A stretch of 64,000 bases of DNA from Pontibacter ramchanderi (lineage in GTDB: Bacteria; Bacteroidota; Bacteroidia; Cytophagales; Hymenobacteraceae). The position numbers and the translations under genes are program-made. Position 1 is the first letter of the stretch; each line of letters begins with the position of its first letter. Under the pieces are notes generated by a model. The model ran no database searches and was not told where the DNA came from. It saw nothing but the letters and a program-made list of their open reading frames with translations. The stretch covers positions 186,001 to 250,000 of the forward strand of contig NZ_PJMU01000002.1 in assembly GCF_002846395.1 (NCBI RefSeq). Direction: 5' to 3'. Positions 2,039 to 6,759 of the stretch are shown in pieces.

Positions 2039-3253
2039 ATGAGAACACGCGCTTTCTTTACCGGACTTCTTGCACTGGTTCTGTTGAGTTTTACACCAGT
2101 TGCTGCACAGATCAACGTGGGTAAAAACCTTAGGAATAAGATTAACAGCAAGATAAACCAGAAAGTAGACCAACAGGTTGACAAGTCGATTGACGAAACG
2201 CTGGAGGGCAAAAAAGAGGCTTCGGCTGATAATAGCGACTCCAAACGCAGCAATGCCAAGGCGAGCAGTACAGGATCTGAGGAAGTAAAAATGAAAGCCT
2301 GGAGCAAGTACGATTTCGTGCCAGGGGACAAAGTACTGTTTTCAGATAATCTTGCCGGTGAAGAGAACGGCGAATTTCCATCGCGCTGGGACCTGAACAA
2401 GGGGAACGCCGAAGTAGCCGATTTTGGTGGCGAACCTGTCATCAACCTGGTGGCTTCCGGCACGAGCATCAAGCCGCTGATGAAACGGGAAAACTGGCTG
2501 CCCGAAACATTCACCATCGAAATGGACCTGTACTTTGACAGTGATAACGGGAATGTTGCCTATGACATATTCCTGGTGGACGACATAAAGGATTACAAGG
2601 AGGCGGTTAACGGCCATTTCTGGGACCCCATCGATGTACGGGCCAATGGTGTGAGGTTCAAGACCTATGGTTCGGAGTCGCAGGAACTGAAGGAGAAGGG
2701 CGTAAACAATCAGTGGCGCCACCTCTCCATCGCCTTCAACAAACGCAGCATGAAGGTATACCTGGACGAAGAGCGCCTGATCAACATCCCGAATGTAACC
2801 GGTACGCCAACCGGCCTGCGCATAGAGGTTGACAAGCGCATTGATGCCAACACCATGGTGAAAAATGTGCTGATAGCCGAAGGCGGCAAGAAACTGTACG
2901 ATCAGATAACGGCCGACGGCAAAATAGTAACCTACGGCATCAAGTTCGATGTAAACAAAGCCGATATCCGTCCTGAGTCGGCAGGTACGCTGCAAAGTAT
3001 TGCCAAACTTATGCAAGAGCAGCCAAACCTCAGGTTCACTGTAGAAGGCCACACCGACAGCGACGGTGACGAAAATGTCAACCTGAAACTCAGTCAGCAA
3101 CGGGCCGAATCTGTAAGAACATACCTGGTGGGACAGGGAATTGCGGCCGATCGCCTGGAGCCCAAGGGCTGGGGGGAATCCAAACCGATAGACAAGAACC
3201 CCACCGCCCAGGCCAAGTCCAACAACCGGCGGGTAGAATTTGTGAAAAGATAA
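2039..3253 (+). CDS. OmpA family protein with N-terminal coiled and LamG-like regions
   Basis: The 404-residue protein begins with a signal peptide cleaved near VAAQ (residues 20-23). A polar, coiled-coil-like stretch rich in Asn, Lys and Asp follows (about 25-80). A middle region of about 190 residues looks like a concanavalin/LamG-type beta-sandwich (RWDLNKGNAEV to MVKNVLIAE). The C-terminal OmpA peptidoglycan-binding domain (about 295-404) carries the family motif VEGHTDSDG and the NNRRVEFV end. It is probably a periplasmic or outer-membrane protein holding peptidoglycan. It has its own -7 box and terminator, so it is probably monocistronic. The OmpA domain is certain; the middle domain is inferred. 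Confidence 0.85.
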   Translation: MRTRAFFTGLLALVLLSFTPVAAQINVGKNLRNKINSKINQKVDQQVDKSIDETLEGKKEASADNSDSKRSNAKASSTGSEEVKMKAWSKYDFVPGDKVLFSDNLAGEENGEFPSRWDLNKGNAEVADFGGEPVINLVASGTSIKPLMKRENWLPETFTIEMDLYFDSDNGNVAYDIFLVDDIKDYKEAVNGHFWDPIDVRANGVRFKTYGSESQELKEKGVNNQWRHLSIAFNKRSMKVYLDEERLINIPNVTGTPTGLRIEVDKRIDANTMVKNVLIAEGGKKLYDQITADGKIVTYGIKFDVNKADIRPESAGTLQSIAKLMQEQPNLRFTVEGHTDSDGDENVNLKLSQQRAESVRTYLVGQGIAADRLEPKGWGESKPIDKNPTAQAKSNNRRVEFVKR

Positions 3254-3494: not shown

Positions 3495-5093
3495 ATGAAA
3501 AGCTACCACCTGCACGTCCTATCACTCGCGTGCGTCCTGCTATTTTCTTCGGGTTGCGCCCGCAAGAATTTCTACTCCAAAACCCCCGTAGTTGACCAAT
3601 CACGCTATCAGCAGCTAAAAACCGCCTCACCTGCCGAGGTAGACAGTGTTACCGTAATGGCTGGCCAGCATTATAAACGTACCGGTTTCCATAACCTCTT
3701 CTGGGGAAAGCATTACCGCGATATATGGGCCACAGCCGTTACAGTTGGCGTATTTGACATGAAAACGGCAAAGGGCGGACTGTCGGTCGAGAAGCTGGGG
3801 GGAGGTATGCAGACCACTAGCCTCACCCTGATCGACGGGAACGGCTTTACCTACGCGCTGCGATCCATTGACAAAGACCCGGCCGGTATACTGCCCAAAT
3901 TCTGGCGCAACACCTTTGTGGCCGATGTGCTCCGCGACCAGACCTCGGCCATCAACCCATACGGTGCTTTCGTGCTGCCCCCCATGGCCGCAGCAGCAGG
4001 TATACCACACTCAAAACCCGAGCTGGTATATGTGCTTCCTTCAGACACCACCTTCGGGGAGTATAGCGACAGGTTTCAGGACCGTGTATTCATGATCGAG
4101 GAGAAATACAACGACGACCGTACCCTCACCCCCATGCTGGGCAATGCCGTGGATATCGCCAGCTCCAAGAAAATGCTCAAGAAACGCTTTGGAGACGATG
4201 ACCACTTCATCGACCAGCGCGAGTTCGCCCGCGCCCGCCTCTTCGACCTCTTCATAAATGACTGGGACCGCCACGAGGGCCAGTGGGAATGGGCTGTGTA
4301 TGACGACGGCGAAAACAAGCTCTACCGGGCTATACCCAAAGACCGCGACAACGTCTTCTATAAGTTCGATGATGGCCTTATCCCTTGGCTCTTCAGCCGC
4401 AAATGGGCCATCCGGAAATTCGAGACCTTCGGCCCCAGGTATAAGGATGTGTACGCCCTGATGATGAACGCCAGCTTTATTGACCAGCGCGCGCTCACAG
4501 AACTCACCGCCCAGGACTACCAGCAACTGGCCAAGGAACTGCAGGCGGCGCTGACTGATGATGTCATCGAACAGGCTATCCGGCAGTTTCCGCCTAAGGT
4601 ATATGACCAGCTGGGTGAGCAGACCATCCGTTTACTGAAAAGCCGTCGCGATCTGTTGCCGCAGGCCGCACAGGAGTTTTACCTGCACCTGGCCAAAAAC
4701 CCGCTGGTGATAGGCACTGATCTGGAGGAACGATTTGAGGTAGAGCGCCTGAACGATGAGGAAACTGCTGTGAAAGTGATCCGACTGTCTGACAACAAAC
4801 AGGTATACCACCGGGTGTTCAAACGCAGCGAAACCAAGCAGATTACCCTACACGGCCTGGCCGAAGACGATGAATTTGAGATTAGCGGGGAAGTGGGTAA
4901 AGGTATACGCGTTGTGATTGTAGGCGGGCGTGGCGAGGACGAGATCAAAGACAGCTCAAAAGTGAAAGGCTGGCGCCGTAAAACCGTGGTATACGACACG
5001 AAGCGTGGTACCGAAATTAAGGCCGGCCCCGAAACCATTGACAAGACGTCCCATAACGTAAAAGTACACGCTTTCGACAGGGAGGGCTACTAG
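3495..5093 (+). CDS. Lipoprotein with kinase-like active-site motifs (paralog 1)
   Basis: The 532-residue protein has a lipobox (FSSGC, Cys21). The core contains ALRSIDKDP (around residue 120), an acidic hinge-like MIEEK, then LFDLFINDWDRHEGQWEW with D258-R259-H260, and PKDRDNVFYK with D283/D285. The order (basic residue near a beta strand, D-R-H-x-x-N/Q, then a second Asp motif) resembles the atypical kinase fold of HipA, FAM20 and CotH proteins. A similar segment is known from large Bacteroidota proteins that fuse a metallophosphoesterase and a beta-barrel. This is inference: no substrate is known. The C-terminal 130 residues look like a small beta-rich domain. The next gene is a close paralog 40 bases downstream, probably in the same transcript. 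Confidence 0.7.
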   Translation: MKSYHLHVLSLACVLLFSSGCARKNFYSKTPVVDQSRYQQLKTASPAEVDSVTVMAGQHYKRTGFHNLFWGKHYRDIWATAVTVGVFDMKTAKGGLSVEKLGGGMQTTSLTLIDGNGFTYALRSIDKDPAGILPKFWRNTFVADVLRDQTSAINPYGAFVLPPMAAAAGIPHSKPELVYVLPSDTTFGEYSDRFQDRVFMIEEKYNDDRTLTPMLGNAVDIASSKKMLKKRFGDDDHFIDQREFARARLFDLFINDWDRHEGQWEWAVYDDGENKLYRAIPKDRDNVFYKFDDGLIPWLFSRKWAIRKFETFGPRYKDVYALMMNASFIDQRALTELTAQDYQQLAKELQAALTDDVIEQAIRQFPPKVYDQLGEQTIRLLKSRRDLLPQAAQEFYLHLAKNPLVIGTDLEERFEVERLNDEETAVKVIRLSDNKQVYHRVFKRSETKQITLHGLAEDDEFEISGEVGKGIRVVIVGGRGEDEIKDSSKVKGWRRKTVVYDTKRGTEIKAGPETIDKTSHNVKVHAFDREGY

Positions 5094-5133
5094 CTAGCTT
5101 CCACATAAAAACACCAACCAACACCACCATACC

Positions 5134-6759
5134 ATGTTCCGCACCCACTCCTGCCTAAGCTCCCTTGTCCTTTTGCTGATTTTATTCCTGACAGGGTGCA
5201 TCGGCAACAAATACACGCATAGCCTGCAACAGGTGTCAACGCCACCTCAGTCTGCCCTCGCTAATGCTTCCTACAGCGACAGCACCATCACAGTAGCCGT
5301 TGGCGAGCACTACGGACGTAGCAGGCTGCACACGTTCTTCTATGGCAAACACTACCGCACCGCCTGGACCACACCCGTTGCGTTCAGGGTGCTCGATCTG
5401 GGCACACAAAAAGGAGGCCTGAAGCCAACCCAGCAGGGCGGCAGCCGTCAGACGATGAACCTGCGTCTGGAAGATGCCGAAGGCAAGGAATACGTGCTGC
5501 GCTCGGTTGACAAAGATCCCGCCACGGCATTGCCTGAGAAATGGCAACAAAGCTATGCAGCCAACATCATACGCGATGCAACATCAGCCACACACCCATA
5601 TGCAGCCCTGGTACTGCCTACTATGGCCGAAGCCATTGGCGTTCACCACACCAAACCAGAGCTTGTTTACATTCCCCACGACCCGCGCCTGGGAAACTAC
5701 CTGGCGGATTTTGGAGGCATGGTTGCCCTGCTGGAGATCAGGCCAAACGATGACCTGTCCGATGAGCCCGGCATGGGCAGCTCTGAGAACATCAAAAGCA
5801 CCCGCGCCATGCTCAAGGACAGGTTCTTCGAAAACGACAGTCACATAGATGCCCGCTACTACTTGCGCGCCCGCTTGTTCGATATGCTGATTGGTGACTG
5901 GAGCCGGCACGAAGACAACTGGCGCTGGGCGCAGTACAAGCAGAACAGCGTGAAGGTATATCAGGCTGTGCCGCGTGACCGTGACAATGTTTTCTACAAA
6001 CTCAACGATGCCATCATTCCCTGGCTCTTCATGCGCACCGGACTAAAGAAGCACTTCCAGACCTACAGCGACAACCTATCGAACCTGGAGGACCTGAACA
6101 GAAGCGGCCGCAACCTGGACGAAACCATACTTGTCGGCCTAACCTTTCAGGATTGGACCGAAGTAGCGGACAGTGTCAGCAAAGCCCTCACCAATGACGT
6201 GATCGAACAGTCTTTCCGCCAAATGCCTGACAATATTTACCAACTCACAGCCTCCCCTATTATGAACCAGCTGAAGTCCCGGCGTGACAAACTGGGCAGA
6301 TCCATTCAAAAATACTATAAGAATCTAATGCGGGAAGCGGTCGTGGTAGGATCAGAAAAGCACGAGCGATTTGAAGTTGAAGTGCTGTCGGCAAACGAGG
6401 TGCGGGTGCAGGTATACAAGATCAATAAGGACGGTGAAGAGAGAAGACAGCTTTTTGACCGGGTATTCCAGGCGGCCGATACAAAGGAGATTCACCTCTA
6501 TGGCCTGAACGGAGGCGATGAGTTTGTAGTGAAGGGAGAAGACCGGCCAAAGATCCGCATCAGGATATGGGGCGGGGCAGGCGAAGACAGCTATACTGTA
6601 AAAGGACCTAAGCCAATGGCCCGGCGCATCCGGATAGAAGACACCGAATACCGTAACACGTATGACCTGAGTAAGGGTACCCGCCAAAAAACCGAACAGA
6701 GCCCAAAGGCCAACCAGTTTGACGCAGAGGGCTGGTTGTTGCACTACTACCTGGATTAG
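5134..6759 (+). CDS. Lipoprotein with kinase-like motifs (paralog 2)
   Basis: The 541-residue protein has a lipobox (FLTGC, Cys22) and is colinear with the preceding gene over its whole length. Shared blocks are FYGKHYR, YVLRSVDKDPA, PYAALVLPTMAEA, RARLFDMLIGDW, PRDRDNVFYK and the C-terminal WGGAGED block. In the presumed catalytic loop it reads DWSRHEDNW (D255, S257, N262) where paralog 1 has DWDRHEGQW. The Asp of the D-R-H motif is therefore Ser here, but the Asn expected of a metal ligand is kept. One copy may be inactive or the two may act as a pair. Both are likely exported and lipid-anchored. A terminator follows, so the two genes probably form a bicistronic unit. Confidence 0.7.
   Translation: MFRTHSCLSSLVLLLILFLTGCIGNKYTHSLQQVSTPPQSALANASYSDSTITVAVGEHYGRSRLHTFFYGKHYRTAWTTPVAFRVLDLGTQKGGLKPTQQGGSRQTMNLRLEDAEGKEYVLRSVDKDPATALPEKWQQSYAANIIRDATSATHPYAALVLPTMAEAIGVHHTKPELVYIPHDPRLGNYLADFGGMVALLEIRPNDDLSDEPGMGSSENIKSTRAMLKDRFFENDSHIDARYYLRARLFDMLIGDWSRHEDNWRWAQYKQNSVKVYQAVPRDRDNVFYKLNDAIIPWLFMRTGLKKHFQTYSDNLSNLEDLNRSGRNLDETILVGLTFQDWTEVADSVSKALTNDVIEQSFRQMPDNIYQLTASPIMNQLKSRRDKLGRSIQKYYKNLMREAVVVGSEKHERFEVEVLSANEVRVQVYKINKDGEERRQLFDRVFQAADTKEIHLYGLNGGDEFVVKGEDRPKIRIRIWGGAGEDSYTVKGPKPMARRIRIEDTEYRNTYDLSKGTRQKTEQSPKANQFDAEGWLLHYYLD

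Follow-up and report, generated by a model that had tools for sequence, protein, structure and literature searches.

Adjacent lipoproteins of Pontibacter ramchanderi with a predicted kinase-like fold and their Omp85-fused relatives in Bacteroidota

Two adjoining lipoprotein genes of Pontibacter ramchanderi, here called copy 1 and copy 2, almost certainly encode proteins with a kinase-like two-lobe fold, as judged from their predicted structures. We also have little doubt that the pair is the free-standing form of a Bacteroidota family whose domain is found in a fusion context as well. The fold class is known, and the family is absent from Pfam and NCBIfam. The genes lie on the same strand, 40 bp apart, in a window of 64,000 nucleotides (assembly GCF_002846395.1, contig NZ_PJMU01000002.1, positions 186,001-250,000, forward strand), the whole of the DNA stretch analyzed here. 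As an explanation of the whole we propose, with about an even chance of being right, that both are kinase-like lipoproteins facing the periplasm, copy 1 acting as a phosphotransferase and copy 2 as a regulatory pseudokinase.

The gene pair and its predicted fold

Copies 1 and 2 share 41% identity over 521 columns (E 6e-137). A preliminary description of this DNA had reported tandem genes with lipoboxes and shared sequence blocks, and the open reading frames, lipoboxes and blocks are all found in the sequence as it quoted them (Table 1); it had also assigned the pair Asp plus Gln to copy 1 and Ser plus Asn to copy 2, correctly. The N-lobe block reads LRSIDKDP in copy 1 and LRSVDKDP in copy 2, and the quoted blocks contain many of the best-conserved columns of an alignment of 98 family domains described below. 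The script used for lipobox patterns found the lipobox of copy 2 but halted at a preceding Cys in copy 1. Neither protein is covered by a Pfam or NCBIfam model, the scans having returned only sub-threshold rows to unrelated families, and a PDB search with the copy 1 sequence yielded nothing with E < 0.09. The closest relatives found for the pair are Pontibacter proteins of at most 90% identity.

AlphaFold2 models were built from an alignment of 23 rows that combined copies 1 and 2 with the proteins of 13 related loci. The model of copy 1 has a mean predicted local distance difference test score (pLDDT) of 84.3 and a predicted TM-score (pTM) of 0.86; for copy 2 the values are 82.0 and 0.83. In a VIA-align fold search, the best row for copy 1 is the Bacillus cereus kinase CotH (5jd9; Z 14.0, 251 residues, 4.2 A root-mean-square deviation), followed by PI4KII-beta (Z 13.9) with other type II phosphatidylinositol 4-kinases below it, CtkA (Z 13.0), PI3K-type kinases, HipA (about Z 10.4) and LepB (Z 10.0). 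Copy 2 matches PI4KII-beta (Z 13.4), CotH (12.7), CtkA (12.0) and HipA (10.4), with actin-fragmin kinase (Z 10.0) and the hydra Fam20 structure 5xoo (Z 9.3) in lower rows. Foldseek ranks CtkA first for both copies (E 5.5e-6 for copy 1 and 2.4e-6 for copy 2), and copy 1 also matches PI4KII-alpha (4.6e-5) and CotH (5e-4). The best 50 VIA rows of each copy all represent kinases or proteins resembling them; most say so in their titles, and the HipA entries and the Legionella protein LepB, whose titles are silent, belong here too. The kinase-like core suggested in the preliminary description is thus borne out by structure prediction and fold search in both copies, and its comparison with HipA, FAM20 and CotH was apt, since CotH heads the fold matches of copy 1, level with PI4KII, and gives the better of the two profile comparisons below.

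The fold-aligned part of copy 1 covers roughly residues 83-400 and leaves the beta domain at 403-532 outside. In the model, LRSIDK lies on strand 119-124 and E202 on strand 197-203, DWDRH comes right after helix 241-254, and PKDRD right after strand 275-281. This order, an N-lobe strand, a long helix leading to DWDRH and a beta hairpin leading to PKDRD, is that of kinases, and the motif residues would gather in one pocket if the model is right. Among the features of the protein kinase-like (PKL) superfamily, the two-lobe fold is present in the predicted models of both copies, the catalytic-loop Asp in copy 1, and the metal-binding Asp of the DFG position (D283) in copy 1; the catalytic-loop Asp is absent from copy 2, and the metal-binding Asn is replaced by Gln in copy 1 and kept in copy 2.

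A profile of the family's kinase domain was compared with 15 Bacteroidota CotH proteins (L048-L062) and scored 38.1 (E 7.8e-4), a value that none of 60 column shuffles reached (best shuffle 22.8). The HHalign probability of this match is low (25%, and 8.7% with a smaller alignment), which counts against our overall proposal. The alignment places DWD on the CotH block NWD and IPKDRDNVF on IPYDYDNTL, bringing the IP-D-D-(T/V) blocks into register. The two families nevertheless differ: the Bacteroidota CotH proteins inspected have NNF after the loop where the window family has QW or NW, fusions to a phosphatase and Omp85 belong to the window family, and the CotH model PF08757 gives no row at E <= 1 for either copy and no match in the Pontibacter ramchanderi genome. 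As for HipA, its loop N-x-D-x-H-x-K-N aligns with DWDRHEGQ (DWDRHEGQW on NCDDHTKNF), and a solved HipT has NEDMHLKNF at the catalytic-loop position. The HipA profile score was equalled by 4 of 60 shuffles, which is not above chance; we therefore rejected this comparison as support and treat the register as a consistency check only. PF07804 (HipA_C) likewise has no row at E <= 1 for copies 1 and 2 and none in the Pontibacter ramchanderi genome. HipA, HipT and CtkA are cytoplasmic toxins or effectors. Type II phosphatidylinositol 4-kinases, whose catalytic-loop spacing we take to be similar to that of the pair, are eukaryotic lipid kinases with Lys at the beta-3 position, unlike the window family, which has Arg there. 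A search for PF00454 in 99 Bacteroidota genomes found none, and hence no local PI3/PI4-kinase profile was available.

Could the resemblance to kinases be an artefact of modelling? The alignment behind the models is shallow at 23 rows, whole-chain Foldseek TM-scores are low for both copies (TMq about 0.3 or less), and the VIA tool cautions that a Z of 14 against unrelated chains can occur with some models that are largely helical. Yet the two models agree, with high confidence across much of a mixed alpha/beta domain, although they are not fully independent because their alignment rows are common to both. Moreover, the listed VIA rows all belong to a single superfamily, the best Z values of 14.0 and 13.4 compare with the 7-8 that is usual when a model has no match, and the profile match to CotH exists. 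We therefore regard an artefact as very improbable.

Table 1. Positions in the window of the two genes and of their sequence features
Feature	Position	Strand	Description
Copy 1	3495..5093	+	532 amino acid lipoprotein; predicted atypical kinase-like domain (~83-400) and C-terminal beta domain (~403-532)
Copy 1 lipoprotein signal peptide, end FSSG-C21	3495..3557	+	read from sequence
Copy 1 catalytic-loop block DWDRHEGQWEW, residues 256-266	4260..4292	+	
Copy 1 DFG-position block PKDRDNVFYK, residues 281-290	4335..4364	+	
Copy 1 residues D258, Q263, D283	within 3495..5093	+	present by family alignment
Copy 2	5134..6759	+	541 amino acid paralogous lipoprotein; predicted kinase-like domain, Ser at the catalytic-Asp position; candidate pseudokinase
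Copy 2 lipoprotein signal peptide, end FLTG-C22	5134..5199	+	sequence and lipobox pattern
Copy 2 catalytic-loop block DWSRHEDNWRW, residues 255-265	5896..5928	+	
Copy 2 DFG-position block PRDRDNVFYK, residues 280-289	5971..6000	+	

Domain architectures and conserved residues of the family

Family matches were found in 144 of 395 Bacteroidota genomes sampled, many of them in open frames of about 850-1,400 amino acids; at most three candidates were scored per genome and the matches were listed in part, so that copy numbers are lower bounds. The preliminary description had envisaged the pair as a new type of envelope phosphorylation or pseudokinase system. The domain occurs well beyond the pair, being widespread in fusion to an Omp85 barrel, often together with a metallophosphoesterase. 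Its fullest form consists of a lipoprotein anchor, a metallophosphoesterase, the kinase-like domain and an Omp85 barrel; another has the kinase-like domain followed by the barrel, and together these fused forms are commoner than the solo form. When the 98 domains are sorted by flank length, 43 have a long N-terminal and a barrel-size C-terminal flank, 20 the C-terminal flank only, and 35 are solo. The metallophosphoesterase motifs GDxG, GDNxY, GNHD/E and HHP occur in 33 of the 43 long fusions, 26 of which also have GHxH, and the motif check leaves this domain unconfirmed in the remaining ten. A lipobox is recognized by pattern in 30 of the 43 long fusions and in none of the 20 domain-barrel proteins. 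Barrels were confirmed by family models in all four proteins scanned (L004, L005, L080 and L031), with Omp85 matches that all fall below the NCBIfam cut-off and a Pfam Omp85 match above cut-off in L005 and L080.

Pontibacter ramchanderi itself has five occurrences of the domain: the pair, a third solo lipoprotein (L002), and two fused genes. One of these, L004, combines a metallophosphoesterase (PF00149, E 1.2e-5), the kinase-like domain and an Omp85 barrel (NCBIfam match E 1.6e-22, below cut-off; no Pfam Omp85 row at E <= 0.1). The other, L005, is of the kinase-like-barrel form (Pfam Omp85 1.1e-13 on the barrel part). It lies at about 978975-980285 on the minus strand (G000:C1) and contains an in-frame TAG, making it a possible pseudogene or an assembly error. 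Copies 1 and 2 have neither a phosphoesterase nor an Omp85 barrel by Pfam and NCBIfam scans and thus fall outside the Omp85 'Metallo' subfamily.

This subfamily and another, 'noNterm', were named by Heinz and Lithgow in 2014 (PMC4104836). Like L004, the Metallo proteins have PF00149 and an Omp85-type barrel in one protein, and the paper's section on these subfamilies, which calls PF00149 a metalloprotease where Pfam has a calcineurin-like phosphoesterase, mentions no domain between the two. The present family would supply such a middle domain. The paper also states that the barrels of the noNterm and Metallo groups resemble each other, as would be expected if the kinase-like-barrel form were the one named noNterm. 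Searches of the open-licence PMC literature, screened by title and the start of the abstract, found no description of a kinase-like domain in Omp85 proteins, and term searches within PMC12611786, PMC12045153, PMC13067283, PMC12599244 and PMC7948968 found no relevant passage.

After the lipidated Cys, solo proteins (CARKNFF) and fused proteins (CATKKPYY, CSTSQTYI) have a few basic or polar residues followed by aromatic ones, and this shared N-terminal stretch hints that the solo forms derive from fused ones. Among viral contigs, 16 stretches matched a pattern and none was a relative; copy 1 had no match in phage records. When the kinase-like-barrel protein L080 was used as the query, 5 of 72,556 plasmid records matched, four of them annotated as hypothetical protein and one without a listed feature.

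The 98 domains were chosen from the listed matches rather than at random, and 22 rows, the window's included, are from Pontibacter. Frameshifted or split gene fragments (L005 and copy 2 of L009, L012 and L017) and duplicate views (L001, L003, L019 and L020) were dropped. In this set R123, D251, D256 and R259 are invariant, K127, D148, E202, D283 and D285 are kept in 97 of 98 rows each, and R284 in 96. K127 sits four residues past R123, and D283, the metal Asp of the DFG position, aligns near the CotH block IPYDYD. The catalytic Asp position, 258, has Asp in 83 rows, Ser in 13, Glu in one and Asn in one (70, 4, 1 and 1 of 76 once the Pontibacter rows are removed). The metal-Asn position, 263, has Gln in 85 rows and Asn in 13 (72 and 4 of 76). 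Every one of the 13 rows with Ser258 is a copy 2 orthologue, an assignment that comes from the tree for nine and from position for four; nine of the 13 have Asn263 (Pontibacter) and four Gln263 (Adhaeribacter and L096-L098). Asp258 is combined with Asn263 in three other rows. Copy 1 is therefore a standard member of the family, its Gln263 being the norm. Of the complementary losses that the preliminary description had read into the pair, one stands: copy 2, with its Ser, has undergone a lineage-specific loss, whereas the Gln of copy 1 is no loss within this family. Two fused members, L111 (2504-6283) and L085 (5731-8319), have also replaced the catalytic-loop Asp, with Asn and Glu among the two, so base loss occurs outside the pair as well.

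Origin and localization of the pair

A tree was made from 86 domains, the 98-domain set with eight Pontibacter loci left out as well. Copy 1 orthologues form a group of 11 rows (support 100/100) and copy 2 orthologues one of nine (100/95), and a single branch (97/88) separates these 20 rows from the rest, every one of them from Hymenobacteraceae or carrying the window's own family code. Calling the two groups sisters assumes a root outside them. The solo form requires three label changes on the tree. On this tree the duplication appears older than the divergence of Pontibacter, Adhaeribacter and other genera of the same family. The two genes are arranged in tandem in Pontibacter and divergently in Adhaeribacter (L018) and in the relatives L096, L097 and L098. 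Solo kinase-like genes of several relatives adjoin a gene of similar sequence (L002 3093-4190, L098 6936-8129, L096 1-1020) that looks to us like a type IB DNA topoisomerase; this neighbour perhaps marks the ancestral site of the pair.

Residues +2 to +7 after the lipidated Cys are ARKNFY in copy 1 and IGNKYT in copy 2, with no acidic residue among them. An acidic export signal just after this Cys marks surface lipoproteins in the other genera for which it is described (PMC5080379). Among proteins in which the pattern script called a lipobox, at least two acidic residues follow the Cys in one of 31 solo and in none of 30 fused ones, although for 11 of the 31 solo proteins the script had halted at a Cys further upstream. 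The periplasmic side is favoured over the surface because this signal, defined in other genera, is absent. To go by the sequence, both copies are likely to sit on the periplasmic face of the outer membrane. The preliminary description had allowed for either location.

Phosphotransfer, its alternatives and the role of copy 2

Copy 1, with the full residue set of the family, would most likely be an extracytoplasmic phosphotransferase in which R123 and K127 hold phosphates, D258 is the catalytic base, and Q263 and D283 bind metal. Judged by residue conservation, its being active and its being inactive seem to us equally probable. D148, one helix before helix 157-167, may take the ion-pair role of an alpha-C Glu. 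Copy 2, having lost the base and kept the rest, would most likely be a nucleotide- or substrate-binding pseudokinase. It is probably impaired in catalysis, and D256, two residues before position 258 and invariant in copy 2 too, might partly replace the lost base. It would then support or regulate copy 1 much as Fam20A, a pseudokinase, potentiates Fam20C (PMC4421793). Both cases involve an extracytoplasmic atypical kinase and a paralogue without an activity-critical residue. However, the Fam20 proteins are from animals, and the pair here is known by its co-inheritance, its adjacency and its Asp-to-Ser change; that the two copies act together is doubtful.

Several observations speak against catalysis. 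Arg occupies the beta-3 Lys position in all 98 domains, Gln replaces the metal Asn in most of them, and no acidic residue is invariant across this set in the second N-lobe helix (157-167), position 166 being acidic in 59 domains and Ala in copy 1. For these reasons the whole family might be non-catalytic. In addition, ATP is not expected in the periplasm or elsewhere outside the inner membrane. The kinase fold would in that case be a phosphate- or nucleotide-binding module that aids assembly or gating of the Omp85 barrel, to which many family members are fused, and the solo lipoproteins would be barrel-less accessory subunits of the same Omp85 machine. We consider this rather unlikely: the catalytic-loop and DFG-position Asp residues are kept in 83 and 97 of the 98 domains, the further near-invariant acidic and basic residues would be superfluous for a pure scaffold, and the fused phosphoesterase suggests phosphate chemistry. 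The Legionella protein Lani_1194 shows the same Lys-to-Arg change and no visible ion-pair Glu, and represents a predicted kinase family (PMC9758233). Membership of Lani_1194 in the present family was considered and set aside, as the same source describes it as a kinase-methyltransferase; the comparison is by description only. Nor need an active enzyme be a protein kinase. It could phosphorylate a lipid or glycan at the inner leaflet of the outer membrane, in the manner of PI4KII or LepB, with the fused metallophosphoesterase removing the same phosphate. PI4KII is among the top fold matches of both copies, LepB matches copy 1, and a lipid anchor would place the active site near lipid head groups; a survey of Legionella (PMC9758233) groups LepB with FAM20 and CotH and suggests phosphatidylinositol or other lipids as substrates. 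But CotH, a protein kinase, is an equally good fold match, the profile that scored above shuffles is that of CotH (CotH and HipA being those compared), and a substrate cannot be read from fold similarity. We judge a lipid or glycan kinase to be unlikely.

A different question is whether the copies are partners at all, or independent paralogues with separate jobs, copy 2 drifting towards loss. Among 12 Pontibacter loci, copy 1 is intact in all, whereas copy 2 is frameshifted in three (L009, L012 and L017) and represented at the pair site by only a C-terminal stub in one (L007), suggesting that it is dispensable in some species or that the assemblies contain errors. No conserved partner gene is evident in the neighbourhoods of L006, L015, L016, L018 and L096-L098, which counts against our main reading. 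On the other hand, where copy 2 is intact it is under nearly the same purifying selection as copy 1: across seven loci in which neither copy is broken, the window's among them, the median ratio of nonsynonymous to synonymous substitution (dN/dS) is 0.063 for copy 1 (20 of 21 pairs usable) and 0.072 for copy 2 (18 of 21), values that are rough because dS exceeds 1, a further weakness of the case. The low ratio suggests that the Ser-bearing copy is maintained where intact, and the genes stay adjacent, in tandem in Pontibacter or divergent in L018 and L096-L098. A survey of the pair's conservation, called for in the preliminary description, thus gave a divided answer, with adjacency across Hymenobacteraceae relatives and a broken or missing copy 2 in four of the 12 Pontibacter loci. 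Separate roles are conceivable, if somewhat improbable.

To our knowledge, hardly any bacterial kinase chemistry is known beyond the cytoplasm. We tentatively suggest that phosphatase-kinase-Omp85 polypeptides, together with a lipoprotein kinase/pseudokinase pair in Hymenobacteraceae, might carry out extracytoplasmic phosphorylation at the outer membrane of Bacteroidota, with envelope proteins, lipids or glycans as targets. If so, reversible phosphorylation at the outer membrane becomes a question for a family present in more than a third of the sampled Bacteroidota genomes, and the natural Asp/Ser pair would offer a ready-made test case for cooperation between a bacterial kinase and a pseudokinase.

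Directly upstream of the pair, at 2039-3253 of the window, lies a gene whose counterpart precedes the pair in Pontibacter L006 and L015 as well. The end of its product presumably resembles the C-terminal domain of OmpA.

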